Shown here in pieces: positions 10,388 through 20,254 of a stretch of 64,000 nucleotides of DNA. Where the stretch lies: assembly GCA_027486345.1 (NCBI GenBank), contig JAIXPH010000048.1, positions 124,001-188,000 on the forward strand. The letters run 5' to 3'. Position numbers and translations under genes: made by a program. A model generated the notes under the pieces. The model saw nothing but the letters and a program-made list of their open reading frames with translations, was not told the origin of the DNA and searched no databases. Each line of letters starts with the position of its first letter. The first letter of the stretch is position 1. Origin of the DNA: Paracoccaceae bacterium (lineage in GTDB: Bacteria; Pseudomonadota; Alphaproteobacteria; Rhodobacterales; Rhodobacteraceae).

Positions 10388-12418
10388 TCAGACAAAGTCG
10401 CGCGCGACCTCCTCATCCCAGCTCCGACTGAAAACCTGCGTCTCGCCCTCCCATGCGGTCAGGCGCGCGGTCATGCGCAGATGCGTGGCGCTGGCGGTCA
10501 TCTCGGCCTCGGCCCGCGTGCGGATGCGCCAATCACCCCGGCTGCGGAGCTGCTCCCAGACATGCACGGCGCGGGCGGAAAGCGGGTCATCCGGATGGAT
10601 TTCCCACCGCTCGGTCAGCGATTCATCCGCGATCAATCCGTGGTCCAAATTCTCCTGCGCGCCCTCATCCGATTCGACGATGAGGGCGACAATGCCGGTC
10701 AGCATGTCCTCTTCGATCCGCCGCACCGCCCGCGCAGGCCGGATCACCCGGTGCCGCCAAGGGGTGGCATGCTCGGCCGGTGGTGGCGTCCACGCCGCCC
10801 CCCCGGAGTGGACCGGCAGCGTCAGGCTCCCGCCCGTCAGCGTCAGCACACCCGCGGTGGGAGAGGGCCAGACAAACGGCCAATAGCTGTTGGAAATCGC
10901 CACACGCAGCCGATGGCCCGCAGCCAACCGATAGCCCGTCATGTCGATGGGCACCGTCACCTCAACCACCTGCCCCGGCACCATCGGCACGGGGGTCCGC
11001 ATCCCGTCACGATGACAAAGGTTCAACATGCCATGTGCGACCCGCACCGACCGGCCATCCGGCCCCACATCGCAAAGCCGCGCGACGACAAACCCCAGCG
11101 ACCGATCTGACGCCACCCGCAAGTGCAGCGACGCGCAGCCCAAAAGCTGCAAAGGCTCCGTCAGCGGCGCCATGTCGAAACACGCCGACAAAGCATCATC
11201 CGCTGCCTGATCCCCCGGCATCTCGGCATTCAGTCCCATCGGAAAGAACTCGCCCGTCCGCATCCCCAGATGCTGCGGCGTGGCGACCTTCACCGAAAAC
11301 CCTGCCCCTTCATCTTGGCTCAAATACCCCACGGGGGCGCGGGGGTGTGAAACCCCCGCTTCTGACGCCTGCAACCAAAGCACCCGCTCGGACACATTCC
11401 CCGAAGGCCACGCCGCCTCTGCCATCCACTCACCCTGCCGATAGGGACTCGAGGCATCGGGCGCCTCGGACTCCACCACATAGGCCCGCAGCGCCGGGTC
11501 ATCCTCCGCCCCGTTCGGCACACCCTTCAACCAGCGATCCCACCAGCGCACCGCCATTTGCAGGAACCCCACCTGCGGCCCCGGCACGGCGGTATGCGGG
11601 TATTGATGCACCCAAGGCCCCACCACACCCTTGCAGACCCCCGGCATGCCGCGCAGCAGCTTGTCCACGGTGTTCATGTAATTGTCGGCCCACCCGCCCC
11701 AGATCATCGCCGGGATGGTCATCCGCGAAAAATCCACATCGACCGAGCCGTGGTCCCAATAGCCATCCCGCGCCTGGTGCCGCGCCCAGATCGGCGCAAG
11801 CCACGGCTCGGCCTCCAACCGCGCCAGCCAATCCGCCCTCCAATCGGGCCTCAGCACAGGATCAGCGGGACGGCTGGAATAGGACAGCATCACCGCGCCC
11901 CAGCCAAAATTCTCGCCCAACAGGCAGCCACCCTTGAAATGGATGTCATCCATGAACCGGTCCGTGGTCGAACAGACCGAGATCACCGCCTTCAGCGCCG
12001 GCGGCTGGTTATAGGCCGCCTGCAGGCAGTTGAACCCACCCCAGCTTTTGCCCATCATCCCGACAGCGCCCGAGCACCACGGCTGGCGCGACATCCAGTC
12101 GATCACGGCGACCGCGTCGTCCATTTCCTGCTGGCTGTATTCGTCCAGCATCAGCCCCTCGGATTCGCCATTGCCGCGCATGTCAACGCGCACGCAAGCA
12201 TAGCCGTGACCCGCCACACAGGGGTGCATCATCTCATCGCGCGGCAAGGTGCCATCCCGCTTGCGATAGGGGATGTATTCCAGCACGGCAGGCACCGGAT
12301 GCACGCCAGCATCCTCGGGCATCCAGACACGCGCTGACAGACGGCAGCCATCGGGCATCACGATTCCCATATCCTCCGTCTCGACGACACGATGCGGGAA
12401 ATCGGTGCGAATGGTCAT
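10388..12418 (-). CDS. CocE/NonD family hydrolase (X-Pro dipeptidyl-peptidase-like) with an in-frame repeat insertion
   Basis: A 676-residue alpha/beta hydrolase of the cocaine esterase/glutaryl-7-ACA acylase group. The N-terminal catalytic domain has the nucleophile elbow GKSWGG (Ser125); the C-terminal half carries the jelly-roll domain, with GHRLRVAISNSYWPFVWPSP being characteristic. No signal peptide is seen. Residues about 350-366 are encoded by a GC-rich palindromic element almost identical to an intergenic copy at 19041-19090, lying near the junction between catalytic and jelly-roll domains. It may be co-transcribed with the ABC operon that reads on from it, or separate. Confidence 0.88.
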   Translation of the reverse strand: MTIRTDFPHRVVETEDMGIVMPDGCRLSARVWMPEDAGVHPVPAVLEYIPYRKRDGTLPRDEMMHPCVAGHGYACVRVDMRGNGESEGLMLDEYSQQEMDDAVAVIDWMSRQPWCSGAVGMMGKSWGGFNCLQAAYNQPPALKAVISVCSTTDRFMDDIHFKGGCLLGENFGWGAVMLSYSSRPADPVLRPDWRADWLARLEAEPWLAPIWARHQARDGYWDHGSVDVDFSRMTIPAMIWGGWADNYMNTVDKLLRGMPGVCKGVVGPWVHQYPHTAVPGPQVGFLQMAVRWWDRWLKGVPNGAEDDPALRAYVVESEAPDASSPYRQGEWMAEAAWPSGNVSERVLWLQASEAGVSHPRAPVGYLSQDEGAGFSVKVATPQHLGMRTGEFFPMGLNAEMPGDQAADDALSACFDMAPLTEPLQLLGCASLHLRVASDRSLGFVVARLCDVGPDGRSVRVAHGMLNLCHRDGMRTPVPMVPGQVVEVTVPIDMTGYRLAAGHRLRVAISNSYWPFVWPSPTAGVLTLTGGSLTLPVHSGGAAWTPPPAEHATPWRHRVIRPARAVRRIEEDMLTGIVALIVESDEGAQENLDHGLIADESLTERWEIHPDDPLSARAVHVWEQLRSRGDWRIRTRAEAEMTASATHLRMTARLTAWEGETQVFSRSWDEEVARDFV
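11321..11370. repeat. Palindromic repeat, copy inside a coding sequence
   Basis: A 50-base element with the order CAAATACCCC, ACGGGGGCGC, GGGGGTGTGA, AACCCCCGCT, TCTGACG. The core GCGGGGGT-GTGA-AACCCCCGC forms a hairpin. It aligns without gaps to 19041-19090, with about four or five mismatches. It stays in frame within the CocE-type gene and encodes roughly EAGVSHPRAPVGYLS. Confidence 0.8.
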
Positions 12419-12626
12419 GGCGACCCTCCTGTTGGCTTATGTCATGAAAGGCGACCGGCGGGGCGTTGCCGCGCCCGTTCGCGCCGGTCCAAGGGCGGAA
12501 CGCGACACCCCACGCTTGAAAAGCGGCGGCACTCCTGTCGGACATGACAGAGAACAGGACGCAACCGCCCTATCCCCCTGCGCCGCCCTGACCTAACGTC
12601 GCGGCAGAATCAGCAAAGGGCCCGCC

Positions 12627-14135
12627 ATGACCACTTCCCCCAACATCCTGATCCTGATGGTGGATCAGTTGACCGGAACCCTGTTCCCCGATGGCCCAGC
12701 CCCGTTCCTGCACGCACCGAACCTGAAACGGCTTGCCGAACGCTCGGTGCGTTTCGCCAACAGCTACACGCCCTCGCCCCTTTGTGCGCCCGCCCGCGCG
12801 GCCTTCATGTCGGGGGCCCTGCCCAAACGCACCCGCGTCTATGACAATGCCGCCGAGTTCGCCTCTGATATCCCGACCTATGCCCACCACCTGCGCCGCG
12901 CGGGCTATCAGACCGCGCTGTCGGGCAAGATGCACTTCGTCGGTCCTGACCAGTTGCACGGGTTTGAGGAACGCCTGACCACAGACATCTATCCCGCCGA
13001 TTTCGGCTGGACCCCGGATTACCGCAAGCCCGGTGAGCGGATCGATTGGTGGTATCACAACCTCGGCTCCGTCACCGGAGCGGGGGTGGCAGAGATCACC
13101 AACCAGTTGGAATATGACGACGACGTGGCGCATCAGGCGGTGCAGAAGCTCTATGACCTCTCACGCGGCGGCGATGCGCGCCCCTGGTGCCTGACGGTCA
13201 GTTTCACCCACCCGCATGATCCCTTCGTCGCGCGGCGCAAGTTCTGGGACCTGTACGAAAACGCCCCCGAACTGACCCCGCCGCAGCCCATCGCCTATGC
13301 CGATCAGGACCCACATTCCAAGCGCCTGATCGACGCCTGCGACAGCCACCGCTTTGACATCACGCCCGACCACATCCGCCGCGCCCGCCAAGGCTATTTC
13401 GCCAATATCTCCTACGTCGACAGCAAGATCGGCGAAATCCTCGACACGCTTGAGGCGACGCGCCAAGAGGCGATCATCCTGTTCCTCTCGGACCATGGCG
13501 AGATGCTGGGCGAACGCGGCCTGTGGTTCAAGATGAACTTCTTCGAAGGCGCGGCCCGCGTGCCCCTGATGATCGCCGCCCCCGGCCTGACGCCGCAACG
13601 CATCGACACGCCCGTCTCCACCATCGACGTGACGCCCACGCTAGCTGCCCTTGCAGGCATCGACATGGCCGAGGTGATGCCCTGGACCGATGGCGAAAAC
13701 CTCGTCCCCCTCGCCACCGGCACCCCGCGCCTGACCCCGGTTGCGATGGAATATGCCGCCGAAGGCTCAATCACCCCGCTGGTCTGCCTGCGCGATGGCC
13801 CGTGGAAATACATCCGCTGCATGGCCGACCCCGACATGCTCTTCAACCTCGACACCGACCCGGCAGAGCGCGTGAACCTCGCCACCGACCCTGCCCATAT
13901 CGACGCGCTGCATATGCTGCGCCGCATGGCGGATGAACGGTGGAACCTGCCCGCCTATGACGCCGCCGTCCGAGAATCCCAAGCCCGCCGCTGGGTGGTC
14001 TATGAGGCGCTGCGCAACGGCGCCTACTACCCATGGGACCACCAACCCCTGCGCGCCGCGTCAGAACGGTACATGCGCAACCACATGGACCTCAACATCC
14101 TCGAGGAAAGCAAACGCTTCCCAAGGGGCGAATAA
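12627..14135 (+). CDS. betC: Choline-sulfatase
   Basis: A 502-residue type I sulfatase. The formylglycine signature CxPxR is present as CAPAR (Cys53-Arg57) and an N-terminal metal Asp13 sits in MVDQL. The C-terminal features WYHNLGSVTGAGV, FSDHGEMLGERGLW-like DHGEMLGE, and the ending around AYYPWDHQP fit choline sulfatase BetC, which splits choline-O-sulfate into choline and sulfate in the cytoplasm. The usual betI/betB neighbours are absent; a convergent GMC dehydrogenase follows. Maturation of the Cys needs a sulfatase-modifying enzyme not found in this window. Confidence 0.88.
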   Translation: MTTSPNILILMVDQLTGTLFPDGPAPFLHAPNLKRLAERSVRFANSYTPSPLCAPARAAFMSGALPKRTRVYDNAAEFASDIPTYAHHLRRAGYQTALSGKMHFVGPDQLHGFEERLTTDIYPADFGWTPDYRKPGERIDWWYHNLGSVTGAGVAEITNQLEYDDDVAHQAVQKLYDLSRGGDARPWCLTVSFTHPHDPFVARRKFWDLYENAPELTPPQPIAYADQDPHSKRLIDACDSHRFDITPDHIRRARQGYFANISYVDSKIGEILDTLEATRQEAIILFLSDHGEMLGERGLWFKMNFFEGAARVPLMIAAPGLTPQRIDTPVSTIDVTPTLAALAGIDMAEVMPWTDGENLVPLATGTPRLTPVAMEYAAEGSITPLVCLRDGPWKYIRCMADPDMLFNLDTDPAERVNLATDPAHIDALHMLRRMADERWNLPAYDAAVRESQARRWVVYEALRNGAYYPWDHQPLRAASERYMRNHMDLNILEESKRFPRGE

Positions 14136-14152
14136 CGCCCCCACCTTCCCCG

Positions 14153-14270
14153 TTGCTCAAACATCCTGCGGGGGGTTTGGGGGGCGCAAAGCCCCCCAAG
14201 GCATCCACCCACGCCACAGCGCAATCCCATCCCGCGCCAGCCCGCCTGAGCGGGGGCTCGATGCCCCCCG
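14153..14270. repeat. Palindromic repeats between convergent betC and GMC dehydrogenase genes
   Basis: TTGGGGGGC-GCAAA-GCCCCCCAA at 14177-14199 is a perfect 9-bp hairpin preceded by CATCCTGCGGGGGG, resembling the repeat at 11321 and 18861. A second GC hairpin, CGGGGGC-TCGAT-GCCCCCCG, lies at about 14251-14270. They lie between two convergent genes and may act as a bidirectional transcription end. Confidence 0.55.
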
Positions 14271-14283
14271 AAGGCGGTCCCCC

Positions 14284-15900
14284 TTACCGGGCATCCCCCA
14301 GCACGATCTCCGCGCCCTTCCAGCCCATCAGGATCGACGGCGCATTGGTGTTCCCGGCGATCAGGTTCGGGAAACTTGACGCATCAATCACCCGCAGCCC
14401 CTCGACCCCGCGCACGCGCAGCCGGTTGTCCAGCACGCTGGTGGCCGGGTCCGCGCCCATCCGGCAGGTGCAGGAGGGGTGATAGACCGTGCCCGAGCGT
14501 TCACGGAAATCTTGGATCAGCGCCTCGTCGCTCTGCACCGCTGGCCCCGGGCGCAGTTCTTCCTTGATCAGCCGCGCCAGCGCCGGTTGCGCCGCCAGAT
14601 GGCGCAGGAACTTCACCGCCGCCAGCATCTCGGTCACGTCATTCTCGGTCGAGAAGGCATTGGCCACGATGGTCGGGTGGCGCAGCGGATCGGCGTTGTT
14701 GATGCGGATATGCCCCCGGCTGGTCGGTCGGCAATTCGACAGGCCTAAAGAGAGACCAGACCACGGATCGGGGTTCAGGATGGGCCGCTCGCCATCGCGC
14801 GGGATCAGGGTGGAAAACGCCTGCATGTAAAGCTGCATGTTCGGGCGCGGCTGGCCCGGATCGGTGCGGAAGAACCCGCCGCCATGGTTGATCGACTTGG
14901 CCAGCGGCCCCGCCCCCGCCAGCACATATTTCATACCCGCGATCAGCTTGCCCCACCACGGGCGCAGCTCATCATTATACGTCGGCACCTTCATCGCCCA
15001 AGTGTAGTTGATGCCCTGATGGTCGTTCAGATGGTCGCCAACGTTCGGGTTATCCACCAGAACCGGCAGGCCCAAGCCCTGCAACAGCGCCCCCGGCCCG
15101 ATCCCCGACAGTTGCAGCAGTTGCGGCGAGTTGATGGCCCCGCCCGACAAGATCACCTCGGCCTTCGCCCGCAGGACATGGCGCTGCCCGTCCTTCAGAT
15201 ACTCCACCCCCACGGCACGACCACCCTCGATCACCACCCGCGTCACATGCGCGCCCGTCACCACCCGGCAGTTGGGCCGCTTCATCGCTGGCCGCAGGAA
15301 TGCCCGCGCAGTGGAATTGCGCCGCGCGGATTTGATCGTCATCTGGTAGATGCCCGCGCCTTCCTGCTCGGCCCCGTTGAAATCGGCATTCTCCGGCAAT
15401 CCCGCACTTTCACAAGCCGCGACATAATCCTTGACCAAGGGATGCAACCCCCGCCGATTGGCCGAGATGAACAAGGGCCCGCCCTTGCCACGCCACGCAT
15501 CGCCGCCCGCCTCGTTATCCTCGATGGCGCGATAGGCGGACAGGACATCCTCCCACCCCCAACCGGGTGCCGCCTGACCCCATTCGTCATAATCGGCGCG
15601 GTGGCCCCGAATCCAGACCATGGCGTTGATGCTGGACGACCCGCCCAGCAGCTTGCCCCGCGGCCAGTGGTCCCGCTGCCCCGCCAAACCGGGATCAGGT
15701 TCGGTCTTGTACATCCAGTTGACGGCCGGATCGTAGAACAGCTTGCCATAGCCCAGAGGCAGCGCGACGTAGAACCGGCGATCACTCCCCCCCGCCTCCA
15801 GCACCGTGACGCGATGCTTGCCGCTGGCCGTCAGCCGTTCGGCCAGCACAGAGCCCGCGCTGCCCGCACCCACGATGATGTAATCGGTCTCGTCGCTCAT
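14284..15900 (-). CDS. betA: GMC oxidoreductase, choline dehydrogenase-like
   Basis: A 538-residue FAD-dependent GMC enzyme. The N-terminal dinucleotide fold reads YIIVGAGSAGSVLAERL, followed by the GMC signature around LLGGSSSINAMVWIRGH. The C-terminal active-site pair is visible as His in VYHPSCTCRMG and Asn in NTNAPSILMG. The nearby choline sulfatase supports choline to betaine aldehyde oxidation, but GMC enzymes with other alcohol substrates look alike. The ATG at 15900 is chosen over an upstream in-frame start because GCAGGA lies just before it and the fold begins immediately. Confidence 0.78.
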   Translation of the reverse strand: MSDETDYIIVGAGSAGSVLAERLTASGKHRVTVLEAGGSDRRFYVALPLGYGKLFYDPAVNWMYKTEPDPGLAGQRDHWPRGKLLGGSSSINAMVWIRGHRADYDEWGQAAPGWGWEDVLSAYRAIEDNEAGGDAWRGKGGPLFISANRRGLHPLVKDYVAACESAGLPENADFNGAEQEGAGIYQMTIKSARRNSTARAFLRPAMKRPNCRVVTGAHVTRVVIEGGRAVGVEYLKDGQRHVLRAKAEVILSGGAINSPQLLQLSGIGPGALLQGLGLPVLVDNPNVGDHLNDHQGINYTWAMKVPTYNDELRPWWGKLIAGMKYVLAGAGPLAKSINHGGGFFRTDPGQPRPNMQLYMQAFSTLIPRDGERPILNPDPWSGLSLGLSNCRPTSRGHIRINNADPLRHPTIVANAFSTENDVTEMLAAVKFLRHLAAQPALARLIKEELRPGPAVQSDEALIQDFRERSGTVYHPSCTCRMGADPATSVLDNRLRVRGVEGLRVIDASSFPNLIAGNTNAPSILMGWKGAEIVLGDAR

Positions 15901-15984
15901 GGTCCTGCCCCTTTTGAGGCCGCAGCCTAGCGGGACAGGCCGAAACGGCCTGACCATCCGCGACAGAAACCCGTCGCTTTCCTG

Positions 15985-16788
15985 TTACTTGCCCTTCCAG
16001 ACCGGATCGCGCTTTTCGGCAAAGGCCCGCGCGCCCTCCAACTGGTCCTCGCTGGAATAGAGGCGATCCACCGTCGGCATCTGCCGCTTGGTGATCCGGT
16101 TGAGCGCGTCCTGAAAGCGCAGCGCCTCGGCCTCGCGCACCACTTCCTTGATTGCGGCGTAGACGAGCGGTGGCCCGCTTTCCAGCAGCCGCGCAAGCTC
16201 CCACGCCTTGGGCAGCAGCTCCGCCTGCGAGGTGATCTCTTTCAACAGCCCCCAGCGCAGCGCCTCTTCGGCATCGAACCAGCGGCCGGTCAGTAGCAGG
16301 TCCATCGCCACGTGATAGGGAATGCGCTTGGGCAGCTTGATGCTGGCCGCATCGGCCACGGTGCCCGACCGGATTTCCGGCAGGGCAAAGGTGGCCGTAT
16401 CGGTGGCAAGGATCAGGTCACACGACAGCGCCAGTTCCAGCCCGCCACCGCAGCAGATGCCATTCACCGCCGCGATGACCGGCTTGTTCAGGTTCGGCAG
16501 CTCCTGCAAGCCGCCGAAGCCACCCACGCCATAATCGCCGTCAACCGCATCGCCCCCCGCCGCCGCCTTCAGGTCCCAACCGGGGCAGAAGAACTTTTCC
16601 CCCTCCGCCCGCAGGATGGCGACGCGCAGGGAGTCATCGTCACGGAAATCGCGAAAGACGAGGCCCATGATCCGGCTTGTCGCCAGATCGATGGCATTGG
16701 CCTTGGGCCGGTCCAGTGTCACCTCAAGGATGGCACCTTCGCGCCGGGTCTTGATCGGGCCTTCGGTCCGCATCTGCATCACCGCCAT
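15985..16788 (-). CDS. caiD: Enoyl-CoA hydratase/isomerase family, probable carnitinyl-CoA dehydratase
   Basis: A 267-residue crotonase-fold protein. The oxyanion-hole segments are visible (FCPGWDLKAAA and GICCGGGLELALSCDL), and ALPEIRSG follows where the catalytic Glu region lies. The C-terminal ESGPPLVYAAIKEVVRE and RDPVWKGK resemble CaiD, which interconverts crotonobetainyl-CoA and carnitinyl-CoA. The start ATG overlaps the CoA-ligase stop as TGATG; a GTG three bases upstream is an alternative. Neighbouring CoA ligase, acyl-CoA dehydrogenase and carnitine dehydrogenase genes support a role in gamma-butyrobetaine oxidation. Confidence 0.78.
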   Translation of the reverse strand: MAVMQMRTEGPIKTRREGAILEVTLDRPKANAIDLATSRIMGLVFRDFRDDDSLRVAILRAEGEKFFCPGWDLKAAAGGDAVDGDYGVGGFGGLQELPNLNKPVIAAVNGICCGGGLELALSCDLILATDTATFALPEIRSGTVADAASIKLPKRIPYHVAMDLLLTGRWFDAEEALRWGLLKEITSQAELLPKAWELARLLESGPPLVYAAIKEVVREAEALRFQDALNRITKRQMPTVDRLYSSEDQLEGARAFAEKRDPVWKGK

Positions 16789-18776
16789 CACGCTTCCTCC
16801 CAGATCACCGCATCAACGGCCACAGCCCCTTGGGCGCGCACCATCAGCGGGTTGATTTCGATTTCTTCCATGCTTGGCGTGGCAACCAGCATGGCCTGCA
16901 AGGCCATCACCGCCTCCACCACCGCCGCCACATCGGCCCGTGCCCGCCCCCGATAGCCATCCAGCAGCGGCCAAAGGCGCAGTGACCGCAACGCAGCCAG
17001 CACCTCATCCTCCACCACGGGCAGCACCAGCGTCTGCGTATCGGCCAGCACCTCTGCCGTCACCCCGCCAAAGCCCAGCGTCAGCGTCGCGCCATAGACC
17101 GGATCGCGCCGCAGCCCAACCAGCAGTTCGGCGACCACGCCGGTCACCATCTCTTCGGCCAGATAGCCCGTCGCGCCGGGGATGTCCGACTGGCCCTCCA
17201 GCGACGTCAGCCCCAGCCGCACGGCCCCGGCCTCTGTCTTATGGGCAAAGCCCAGACCTTTCAGGACAAAGGGCGCGGCGAGCGCCAAGGTATCCAGCCC
17301 CGCAAGATCGGGCGCGCTCACCCCCTTCGGCACCGCCACCCCATGCGCCGCCAGCAGCGCCTTGGCCGACGCCTCATCCCGCAAGCGCAAACTGCGCGCG
17401 GGCAAGGCGGCGAGAGGCCGCCACCCCCCCCGGTTCGGCCCGGTCTGCGCCGCCCGGATCGCCGCCAGCGCGGTTTCCAGACCCATCATCGGCACGACAT
17501 TCCCGCCCATGATCGAGATCGCGAGCGCTTCGTCAAAGTTTTCGGGCAAGGAGCCCACGGCAAATGCGGGCTTTCCGGTGGCCGCCGCCGCCGCCACGAT
17601 GGCGTCCAAGGCCGGGCGGAAGCTGGAGAGATCGCAACGGTCCGGGCGCGGCGGGTCGATGATGAAGATGCCCGCGTCATATCCGGCCAGCATGGTGGTG
17701 AAGACATCGGTGGTGCGCGGCCCGTCGCCCCAGATGAAGGTGTGATAGTCCAACGGATTGGCGATGGCGACGATGGGGCCGAGGATGTCCCCGAGCCGCT
17801 GCCGCTGCGCGTCAGAGGGCGGCGGGAAGTCCACGCCAAAGGGTGCGGCGAGGTCGGCGACAAGCCCCGCCTCACCGCCGGAACAGGACAGCGAACACAG
17901 ACGCCGCCCGATCTGCGGACCACAGACATGAAAGATCTTCAGCGTTTCGATCAGTTCCGCCGGGGTGGCGACTTCCGCCACACCACAGGCCCGCAGAAAG
18001 GCCGAGGACGCCGCCCCGCCCCCGGCCAGCGACGCGGTATGCGAGGCCGCCGCCGTGCGGGAAAGCTCCGTCTTGCCGGATTTGATGCAGACGATCCCCT
18101 TGCCTGCCGCCCGGGCCGCCTCGGCCAGTGCCGCAAAGCCCGGTGCATCGTCGATGCCTTCGACATACATGCCCAGCGCGGTCACCCGCTCATCCGCCAG
18201 CAGCGCCCCGGCGAGCTCCGCCAATCCCACCTGCGCGGCATTGCCCAGACAGGCCACATAGGCCACCGGCAGCCCCCGCGCCTGCATGGTCAGGTTGATG
18301 ACGATGTTCGAGGATTGCGAGAGAAGCGCCACCCCCCGCTCCACCCGCCTCCCGCCATGCTGATCGGGCCAGAGGAGCGCCCCGTCGAGATAGTTGATCA
18401 CGCCATAGCAATTCGGCCCGAGGATCGGCATATCCCCCGCCGCTGCCACGAGCTTGGCCTGAAGGTCTGCCTCCCCCGCCTCTTCCCATCCGCTCGCGAA
18501 ACAAGTGGCACCTCCGGCCCCCATCGCGGCCAACTCGGCCACCACGTCCAAAGTGGCATGGCGGTTCACCCCGATGAAGGTGGCATCCGGGGCCGCGGGC
18601 AGATCGGCCAGACTGCGGAAACAGGGCACCCCCGCAATGCTGTCCCGCGTCGGGTGCACTGGCCAGACCGGCCCGTCAAACCCCATCTTCTGGCATTGCT
18701 CGATCACATTCGCCGCCCAGCCGGAGCCGAGCACAGCGATGGAGCCTGGGCGCAGCAATCGGGACAGGTCACGCAT
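16788..18776 (-). CDS. Acyl-CoA synthetase, NDP-forming (acetate-CoA ligase family)
   Basis: A 662-residue fused ligase: an N-terminal CoA-binding Rossmann domain (LLRPGSIAVLGSGW onward), a succinyl-CoA-ligase-like domain with SHTASLAG containing the expected phospho-histidine, a second such domain (SCSGGEAGLVAD), and a C-terminal ATP-grasp domain with SLRLWPLLDGYRG near the end. The reaction is acid + CoA + ATP to acyl-CoA + ADP + Pi. In this setting gamma-butyrobetaine, crotonobetaine or carnitine is the likely acid (inference). The open frame runs 50 codons further upstream into the palindromic repeat; the ATG at 18776 begins the conserved fold. Confidence 0.85.
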   Translation of the reverse strand: MRDLSRLLRPGSIAVLGSGWAANVIEQCQKMGFDGPVWPVHPTRDSIAGVPCFRSLADLPAAPDATFIGVNRHATLDVVAELAAMGAGGATCFASGWEEAGEADLQAKLVAAAGDMPILGPNCYGVINYLDGALLWPDQHGGRRVERGVALLSQSSNIVINLTMQARGLPVAYVACLGNAAQVGLAELAGALLADERVTALGMYVEGIDDAPGFAALAEAARAAGKGIVCIKSGKTELSRTAAASHTASLAGGGAASSAFLRACGVAEVATPAELIETLKIFHVCGPQIGRRLCSLSCSGGEAGLVADLAAPFGVDFPPPSDAQRQRLGDILGPIVAIANPLDYHTFIWGDGPRTTDVFTTMLAGYDAGIFIIDPPRPDRCDLSSFRPALDAIVAAAAATGKPAFAVGSLPENFDEALAISIMGGNVVPMMGLETALAAIRAAQTGPNRGGWRPLAALPARSLRLRDEASAKALLAAHGVAVPKGVSAPDLAGLDTLALAAPFVLKGLGFAHKTEAGAVRLGLTSLEGQSDIPGATGYLAEEMVTGVVAELLVGLRRDPVYGATLTLGFGGVTAEVLADTQTLVLPVVEDEVLAALRSLRLWPLLDGYRGRARADVAAVVEAVMALQAMLVATPSMEEIEINPLMVRAQGAVAVDAVIWEEA

Positions 18777-18860
18777 GGCGGCCCCCAAAGCAAAACGGCG
18801 CGCGCGTGCCGCGCGCAAGCCCTTTAGGTCGCCTGCGCGGCGCAAGCGCCGCTTGTCTCC

Positions 18861-18921
18861 GGCTGGGGGCCGTCTGCCCCCAGACCCCCGAGGATATTTG
18901 GAAAAAGAAGAAAGGCAAAAG
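18861..18921. repeat. Palindromic repeat, forward copy
   Basis: GGGGGCCGTCTGCCCCC and then AGACCCCCGAGGATATTTGG followed by an A-rich tail. The tail half is nearly the reverse complement of 19025-19065. Elements of this form are common between genes in Rhodobacteraceae. Together with the hairpin at 18923 and the inverted copy at 19028 it fills the 314-base gap 18777-19090. Confidence 0.65.
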
Positions 18922-18922
18922 A

Positions 18923-18962
18923 GCACCCTGCCCCGACACGCGGAACAGGGTGCCTTCTCCTT
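18923..18962 (-). terminator. Bidirectional terminator-like hairpin
   Basis: GCACCCTG and CAGGGTGC form a perfect 8-bp stem with a 15-nt loop. On the reverse strand the hairpin is followed by CTCTTTTGCCTTTCTTC, so it could end the BKACE-to-acyl-CoA-dehydrogenase transcript and separate it from the CoA ligase/crotonase pair. Confidence 0.55.
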
Positions 18963-19027
18963 TTACGGTCATCGGCGTCCCCGCCTGTACCGTGCGTTCA
19001 AATTGCCATGCAAAGCTTAACACTTCG

Positions 19028-19090
19028 TTTCTTCTTTTCCTAAATATCCCACGGGGGTGCGGGGGTGTGAAACCCCCGCTCCGACGCCCA
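19028..19090. repeat. Palindromic repeat, inverted copy
   Basis: Reads TAAATATCCC, ACGGGGGTGC, GGGGGTGTGA, AACCCCCGCT, CCGACG at 19041-19086. The core GCGGGGGT-GTGA-AACCCCCGC folds into a hairpin. It is opposite in orientation to the copy at 18861 and nearly identical to the intragenic copy at 11321. Confidence 0.75.
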
Positions 19091-20254
19091 TCACGCGCCA
19101 TGCGGGCGCAGGAGTTCGCGGCTGATGATGTGGCGCTGGATTTCCGACGTGCCTTCCCAGATGCGCTCCACTCTCGCATCGCGCCAGATGCGCTCCAGGG
19201 GCAGGTCATCCATCAGGCCCATGCCGCCGTGGATCTGGATCGCCTCGTCGGCGATCATCGCCAGCACTTCGGTCGCTTTCAGCTTGGCCATCGCCATATC
19301 GCCATCGGTAGCGGTGCCTTGGTCGAATTTCCACGCCGCTTCCCATGCCAGGAGTTCCGCCGCCTTCAACTCCATCGCCATGTCGGCGAGCTTGAAGCTG
19401 ATACCTTGGAACTTGCCGATCTGCTGACCGAACTGCCGCCGGTCTGCCGCATAGGCGATGGCGTGGCCCAGTGCACGTTCGGCGCGGCCAAGGCAGGTGG
19501 CAGCGACTTGCAGGCGGGTGGCCCCGAGCCAGGAATTCGCCACCTCGAATCCCTTGTGCGGCTCGCCCAGCACCTGATCGGCGGGGATGCGGCAGTCGTC
19601 GAATTCCAGCACTGCGTTGGTGTAGCCGCGGTGGCTGACGTTGCGATAGCCCTCGCGGACGGAGAAGCCCTTGGTGCCCTTGTCCACGAAGAAGGCCGTG
19701 ATCCGTTTCTTGGGGCCGCGGGGCGTGTCTTCTTCGCCCGTCGCCATGAAGGCGATGGTGAAGCCTGCGACATCGGCGTGGCTGATGAAATGCTTGGTGC
19801 CGTTCAGCACCCAATCGCTGCCGTCTTGCCGGGCGCTGGCCTTCATCCCCCGCAGGTCGGACCCGGCGCCGGGTTCGGTCATCGCAAGGCAATCCCAGGT
19901 CTCTCCCCGGATGCAGGGCATCAGGTATTTCTCCCGCTGCGCCGGAGTGCCTGCGAGCAGGATGTTCGAAGGGCGCGCGACGCAGGTCCAGTGCAGGGCG
20001 TAGTTGGCGCGGCCCAGTTCCTTTTCGTAGAGCAACCATGACAGCGTATCGAGACCCGCTCCCCCCACCTCGGTCGGCATGTTGGCAGCGTAAAGCCCTG
20101 CAGCCATGGCTTTCTGCTGGACCTCACGGATCAGGTCCATCCGCAGATGACCGGTCCGTTCAACCTCCATCTCATGCGGGTAAAGCTCGTTCTCGACGAA
20201 GGCGCGCGTCGTCTCGACGATCATCTTCTGTTCATCGGTCAGGCCGAACTGCAT
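19091..20254 (-). CDS. Acyl-CoA dehydrogenase, candidate gamma-butyrobetainyl-CoA dehydrogenase
   Basis: A 387-residue acyl-CoA dehydrogenase of normal length with all regions present: N-terminal helical domain (MQFGLTDEQKMIVETTRAF), the FAD-binding signature LAMTEPGAGSDLRGM, and C-terminal IHGGMGLMDDLPLERIWRDAR and WEGTSEIQRHIISREL. It resembles the CaiA-like branch. It reads in the same direction as the carnitine operon, 10 bases after the SDR gene. In context it would convert gamma-butyrobetainyl-CoA to crotonobetainyl-CoA and pass electrons to ETF; that assignment is inference. Confidence 0.88.
   Translation of the reverse strand: MQFGLTDEQKMIVETTRAFVENELYPHEMEVERTGHLRMDLIREVQQKAMAAGLYAANMPTEVGGAGLDTLSWLLYEKELGRANYALHWTCVARPSNILLAGTPAQREKYLMPCIRGETWDCLAMTEPGAGSDLRGMKASARQDGSDWVLNGTKHFISHADVAGFTIAFMATGEEDTPRGPKKRITAFFVDKGTKGFSVREGYRNVSHRGYTNAVLEFDDCRIPADQVLGEPHKGFEVANSWLGATRLQVAATCLGRAERALGHAIAYAADRRQFGQQIGKFQGISFKLADMAMELKAAELLAWEAAWKFDQGTATDGDMAMAKLKATEVLAMIADEAIQIHGGMGLMDDLPLERIWRDARVERIWEGTSEIQRHIISRELLRPHGA

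Follow-up and report, generated by a model that had tools for sequence, protein, structure and literature searches.

The locus described here raises the question of whether a palindromic repeat lying within the reading frame of a hydrolase gene is a genuine insertion and, if so, how old it is and what has become of it since. The window (the whole stretch of 64 000 nucleotides that was analysed) contains a minus-strand gene at positions 10388–12418 that encodes an insert-bearing protein of 676 amino acids. Family matches (TIGR00976, E = 1.7e-70; domains PF02129 and PF08530) and relatives of solved structure identify it as a CocE/NonD family hydrolase; the closest solved structures are those of cocaine esterase, with the bacterial cocaine esterase 1ju3 ranking top by fold. 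An AlphaFold model of the hydrolase, built with 47 sequences in the alignment, has a mean pLDDT of 90.8, and values below 50 are limited to five residues (355–359) in the insert loop, which joins strands 342–351 and 364–367; the low values may partly come from the scarcity of homologues at the insert columns. The earlier note had suggested looking for a surface loop in a structural model, and the insert does coincide with the loop that holds the only residues of pLDDT < 50. The insert is accordingly modelled as writing a flexible loop of the hydrolase between two β-strands, as predicted by AlphaFold.

Read along the minus strand from 11359 to 11308, the entire in-frame element comprises 52 nt, as delimited by comparison with other copies. 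It opens with a hairpin, GCGGGGG-TTTCACA-CCCCCGC (11339–11359; stem and loop X, recognized by consensus matches and stem covariation), followed by one base, a second C-run, CCCCC (11333–11337; run-length comparison), and a spacer Y, GTG (11330–11332; loop–spacer covariation), which is the complement of CAC in the hairpin loop. The remainder (11308–11329) consists of GGGTATTT and a 14-base tail; comparison of orthologues identifies a remnant of this part, GYLGQDE, in orthologues that lack the hairpin. The hairpin consensus has four matches (two copies, each on both strands) versus 0.08 expected by chance. The earlier note had described a 50-base palindrome at 11321–11370 that is nearly identical base for base to 19041–19090. 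The element sequence is indeed present in both places, but the inverted repeat is confined to the central 21 bases (11339–11359) and the interval is too short, as the element runs on through the second C-run, spacer and tail to 11308. The likeness of the two copies was overstated: 40 of 50 bases agree without gaps, and the alignment becomes close with one gap. A gain of about 16 residues had also been proposed; compared with an insert-free orthologue, the gene is longer by about 11–12 codons net, with insert-bearing and insert-free lengths of 96 and 60 nt in the compared segment (L257) and of 2028 and 1995 nt for the whole gene and a matched insert-free gene.

Sequence comparison places the intergenic copy at 19042–19079 (minus strand), directly behind the stop of a minus-strand ORF (19091–20254) and without a tail. 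At least two additional copies in the window come from other subfamilies: one at 18865–18899 on the plus strand (loop CCGTCTG, spacer GA; located by sequence comparison) and one at 14145–14197 on the minus strand (loop CTTTGCG, spacer GCA, then GGATGTTT and tail; limits set by eye). No Rfam 15 family scored above its gathering threshold at positions 11000–20000; there were two sub-gathering hits, of which RF01785 (14172–14197) falls on the copy at 14145–14197, and none falls on the CocE copy. When the genome itself was searched with a 90-base query, 40 matches reached E ≤ 0.01, one of which (L124) is unmatched by the element pattern and was excluded, leaving 39 scored copies. Across the genus, searching for the tail pattern with ≤3 mismatches yields 17–121 sites per genome in 17 of the 18 other genomes and three in the genome itself, and a control pattern yields none in any of the 19. 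The element is a folded repeat without an Rfam 15 match in the stretch searched, present in tens of copies per genome in most of the genus. In the related genome G001, 62 of 68 tail sites were inspected and a hairpin lies upstream at 51. Several subfamilies coexist in each of four genomes searched (raw hits, including overlapping duplicates), and the idea that the in-gene subfamily is simply the majority subfamily of its genome was dropped on the same grounds. A variant class (L130, L132, L137, L171 and similar G001 loci) seemingly has, by eye, an extra small hairpin ahead of the second C-run. The sole genome of the 19 without the tail motif is G010 (1.5 Mb, 96% complete), in which CocE and the small subunit of xanthine dehydrogenase (XdhA) are likewise without a match.

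The element mostly adjoins the 3′ ends of genes. A gene ends within 150 bases on one side of 35 of the 39 copies in the genome itself and of 51 of 60 in G001. A same-strand gene ends ≤150 bases upstream of 27 of the 39 (25 of them at a distance of 8–39 bases) and a convergent gene ends downstream of 18, with neither arrangement for four; the corresponding figures in G001 are 41, 29 and 9 of 60. When the element is reversed as a control, the same-strand count is 18/39 versus 27/39 in the sense orientation, and 29/60 versus 41/60 in G001, which amounts to a preference and not to a strict 3′-end orientation rule. The intergenic copies would most likely represent RNA 3′-end structures.

Residence within genes was scored as coding-like codon usage on both sides of a copy, using a score trained on 37 ORFs of the window. 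The 80 named CocE loci, each spanning at most 7 kb, yielded 43 elements, of which 28 lie in CocE and 15 elsewhere; this test passes 20 of the 28 known CocE copies and none of the 15 others; as it missed eight of 28, in-gene counts are lower bounds. Counting genomic copies and their in-gene share, as the earlier note had recommended, bears out a multicopy repeat and finds few copies in genes: by the codon test one of the 39 scored copies, namely that in CocE, and in G001 two of 62, in CocE and XdhA. A looser ORF score flags 9/39 and 23/60 copies, respectively, as lying inside an ORF.

Within the genus, 18 of the 19 genomes have a CocE match. The full palindrome is found in the copy described here and in those of G014 and G006; five orthologues (L033, L035, L042, L044 and L046) are without it, and the other ten have a shorter segment with a variably recognizable translated tail, weakest in L034, L039 and L045. 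A CocE match at E ≤ 1e-180 is present in 53 of the 149 family genomes, and of 30 matching loci sampled the 28 new ones were read. Two of these, L087 and L088, are from two other genera and have both the hairpin and the tail in an identical frame. A 53-row tree built without the insert columns places every insert row in one 20-row clade with support of 100/97; the family row L098, outside the clade, bears a small number of additional residues at the insertion site, which are unlike the repeat. A 90-row tree, which drew on a named collection (the best 80 of 151 CocE relatives), was computed by a quick method with the insert columns omitted and rooted on the paralogues L049 and L050; the fragment L048 was omitted from both trees. 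All rows with a recognized insert fall in one 68-row clade (SH-aLRT 95), and none of the 22 rows outside it has the insert. This clade spans many Rhodobacteraceae genera, and the insert was found, for example, in Tabrizicola oligotrophica, Fuscovulum blasticum, Fuscibacter oryzae, Xinfangfangia pollutisoli and Stagnihabitans tardus. The insertion in the hydrolase gene is genuine and, since the insert rows are confined to one clade of many genera, old, with no recent hop.

The earlier claim of an in-frame insertion therefore holds: the element lies inside the hydrolase reading frame, and the alignment of homologues identifies the segment as an insertion that orthologues outside the clade lack. 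Shared residues without the repeat, which would have pointed to ancestral protein sequence, are confined to the clade, where they are what is left of the element tail. Of the description 'mobile-looking', the in-frame palindromic insertion stands and recent mobility does not.

The 68 rows of the clade comprise 25 with a recognized hairpin, 27 with the tail only, ten with a long segment showing neither and six with none; the classes are pattern-based (L248 was scored as tail although its segment of 57 nt is as short as the insert-free ones) and the rows include at least three duplicates, L043/L215, L087/L226 and L088/L241 being the same genes from two sources. The hairpin is unrecognized in many rows of the clade (27 + 10 + 6 of 68), so that its fold is dispensable there. 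The presence of the insert requires at least five changes over the 90 rows, consistent with a single gain and four losses. Subfamily requires at least ten changes over the 25 hairpin rows, the least possible being seven for their eight classes, which were partly merged by hand (CTGTCTG with CTTTCTG). Close relatives can carry differing subfamilies, as at the forks of L205/L211 (SH-aLRT 100) and L206/L229 (96); the latter two have CTTCGCG/GCG and TTTCACA/GTG, respectively, and their tails differ as well.

The element carries signs of a fold extending beyond the simple hairpin. The length of the second C-run equals that of the G-run in 93 of 103 distinct elements (shuffled mean 50, maximum 65 in 2000). 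Where the spacer has three bases, the loop contains its complement in 51 of 54 elements; counted by distinct loop/spacer type the figure is seven of ten, which was matched by two of 5000 shuffles. On 18 distinct cores (related sequences, intergenic and in-gene copies mixed, runs of six trimmed to five), 98.1% of the loop–spacer cells are paired versus 75.1% when shuffled, and 12 cells versus 2.2 are two-sided; the two-sided changes include C-G, U-A and G-C at one loop–spacer pair and A-U, G-C and C-G at another. None of 500 shuffles reached the observed paired cells, two-sided cells or covariation score for these cores, and two of the five covariation measures did not rise above the shuffles (pairs with a two-sided change, reached by 267/500, and further pair types, by 463/500). 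Slid controls gave 9.3 to 53.7% pairing. In the stem 99.3% of cells are paired, with five of the eight pairs invariant and three showing two-sided change. Among the in-gene hairpins with a spacer of ≥3 bases, the full spacer complement lies in the loop in 16 of 17 tree rows, the complementarity running through CAC/GTG, CGC/GCG and TGC/GCA; in the 17th (L277) GAC pairs with GTC of the spacer AGTC. Two-base spacers in the gene pair in five of six cases, the exception being L253.

Loop–spacer pairing together with coupled run lengths suggests a pseudoknot, perhaps one that is triplex-like, the latter judging by the run lengths alone. A third strand running back along the stem to the loop would explain both features, and the in-gene copy appears often to retain a nucleic acid fold of its own. 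Each of the three runs is one base longer in L206 than in L229, three in total, and the frame is kept.

The hydrolase is not the only protein gene in which the element resides. XdhA, whose identity is taken from sequence, carries it reversed and in frame in the linker behind the iron–sulfur part; by eye, the insert is present in 14 of 18 genus rows (L197 and L201 being pieces) and in nine of 25 family rows. In-frame residence is therefore not exclusive to the CocE gene. The XdhA of the genome itself, which lies outside the window (G000:C43:230317-231825; L199, L202), has a long linker insert within an open frame of 503 amino acids, and this insert resembles a reversed copy of the repeat enclosing another palindromic stretch.

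We consider it highly probable that a single copy of a dispersed, structured Rhodobacteraceae repeat entered the CocE gene in frame in an ancestor and was later inherited, eroded, lost or exchanged. The tree dates the entry to the common ancestor of the large clade; tolerance of the insertion would be due to its placement between two β-strands as a predicted flexible loop; and the states on the tree show that the copy was afterwards inherited, worn down to its tail, lost or swapped for other subfamilies. Repeated independent insertion at one hot spot, with a separate subfamily arriving in each lineage at an identical place, strand and frame, would account for close relatives with differing subfamilies, such as L206 and L229 with their differing tails. 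This we regard as unlikely, because all rows with a recognized insert form one clade, that very site holds tail remnants in hairpin-less lineages, and orientation and frame are identical in the rows that were read. That the residues are ancestral protein sequence with a chance likeness to the repeat is exceedingly improbable: some hairpin-less orthologues do have GYLGQDE-like residues, but these are the translated repeat tail, the DNA pattern of which recurs 17 to 121 times in nearly all of the other genus genomes, and such residues are missing from all 22 rows outside the clade. An RPE- or REP-type palindrome still being moved by a transposase might explain why two unrelated genes carry the element in opposing orientations; it is quite improbable given that the CocE and XdhA inserts are common to many genera and that Y1_Tnp (PF01797), the family of the RAYT transposases and the one family tested, is above the cut-off in none of the 19 genus genomes.

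Under the preferred reading of a single ancestral entry, the most likely route of subfamily exchange would be either gene conversion, with other copies as donors, or compensatory mutation. In the proposed fold the hairpin loop would pair with the spacer behind the second C-run, as the covariation supports, and the second C-run, which tracks the stem length, may act as a third strand along the stem. The three runs change length in concert, and the step from five to six, as between L206 and L229, preserves the frame because their joint change adds exactly three bases; a general role of this coupling is conjectural. A tentative proposal, which we rate slightly below an even chance, is that a nucleic acid element writes the protein loop: in the in-gene copy, concerted changes or conversion by sister copies would maintain the loop–spacer pairing of a pseudoknot or triplex-like fold, and the coupling of the three run lengths would make length change in steps of three and so leave the reading frame intact. 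If true, the protein sequence at this site would be overridden, across a clade of genera, by selection or copying that acts on the DNA or RNA.

An intergenic repeat is common in Rhodobacterales, and the element is probably this repeat itself. In-frame palindromes are best known from Rickettsia, and the likeness to Rickettsia palindromic elements (RPEs) proposed in the earlier note is supported by palindromic insertion in frame into the CocE and XdhA genes. RPEs are described as palindromic, many-copy elements lying in frame within unrelated conserved proteins (PMC10969869, PMC2229807), 105–146 bp in size (PMC2229807), with nearly half of them within genes (PMC10969869). The present element shares the in-frame insertion into conserved protein genes but is only 52 nt long, has few copies in genes (as lower-bound counts), possesses loop–spacer pairing, and occurs in another bacterial order, where one site is occupied across many genera. 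REP elements are short hairpins found mostly downstream of genes, with intragenic cases in several species (PMC3733652); the present element is similar in these respects but has no constant GTAG/CGTC tag, CGTC being seen by eye near some copies only. RAYT was rejected as the mover, with one sub-threshold hit (G007) among the 19 genus genomes. MITEs have terminal inverted repeats flanked by a target site duplication; in the present element the hairpin occupies one end and the opposite end is an unpaired tail. Size, in-gene share, the absent tag and the absent RAYT argue against membership of either RPE or REP: the element behaves like a Rickettsia palindromic element yet is no member.

Our literature search, which mostly covered sources outside subscription journals, returned no description of the repeat, of its in-frame residence or of loop–spacer covariation. 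Intragenic REP cases are already described (PMC3733652), so a palindrome within a gene is no novelty in itself; the apparent novelty lies in the element's long stay in one gene while subfamilies were exchanged there, and in the loop–spacer covariation. The locus provides a well resolved case in other bacterial families, in which one insertion can be traced through dozens of orthologues as it changes subfamily, is worn down to a scar or disappears altogether, so that a neutral loop can be tested against retention of the nucleic acid fold itself.

Some CocE inserts depart from the common form. In L254 GYLGT occurs twice in tandem, which looks like an in-frame duplication of a tail segment, and enlarged inserts are also seen in L219, L227 and L250. 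A further CocE relative (L265), 65% identical to the protein of the window, lies in CP059262.1, a record titled as an Exiguobacterium profundum MAG and probably misnamed.
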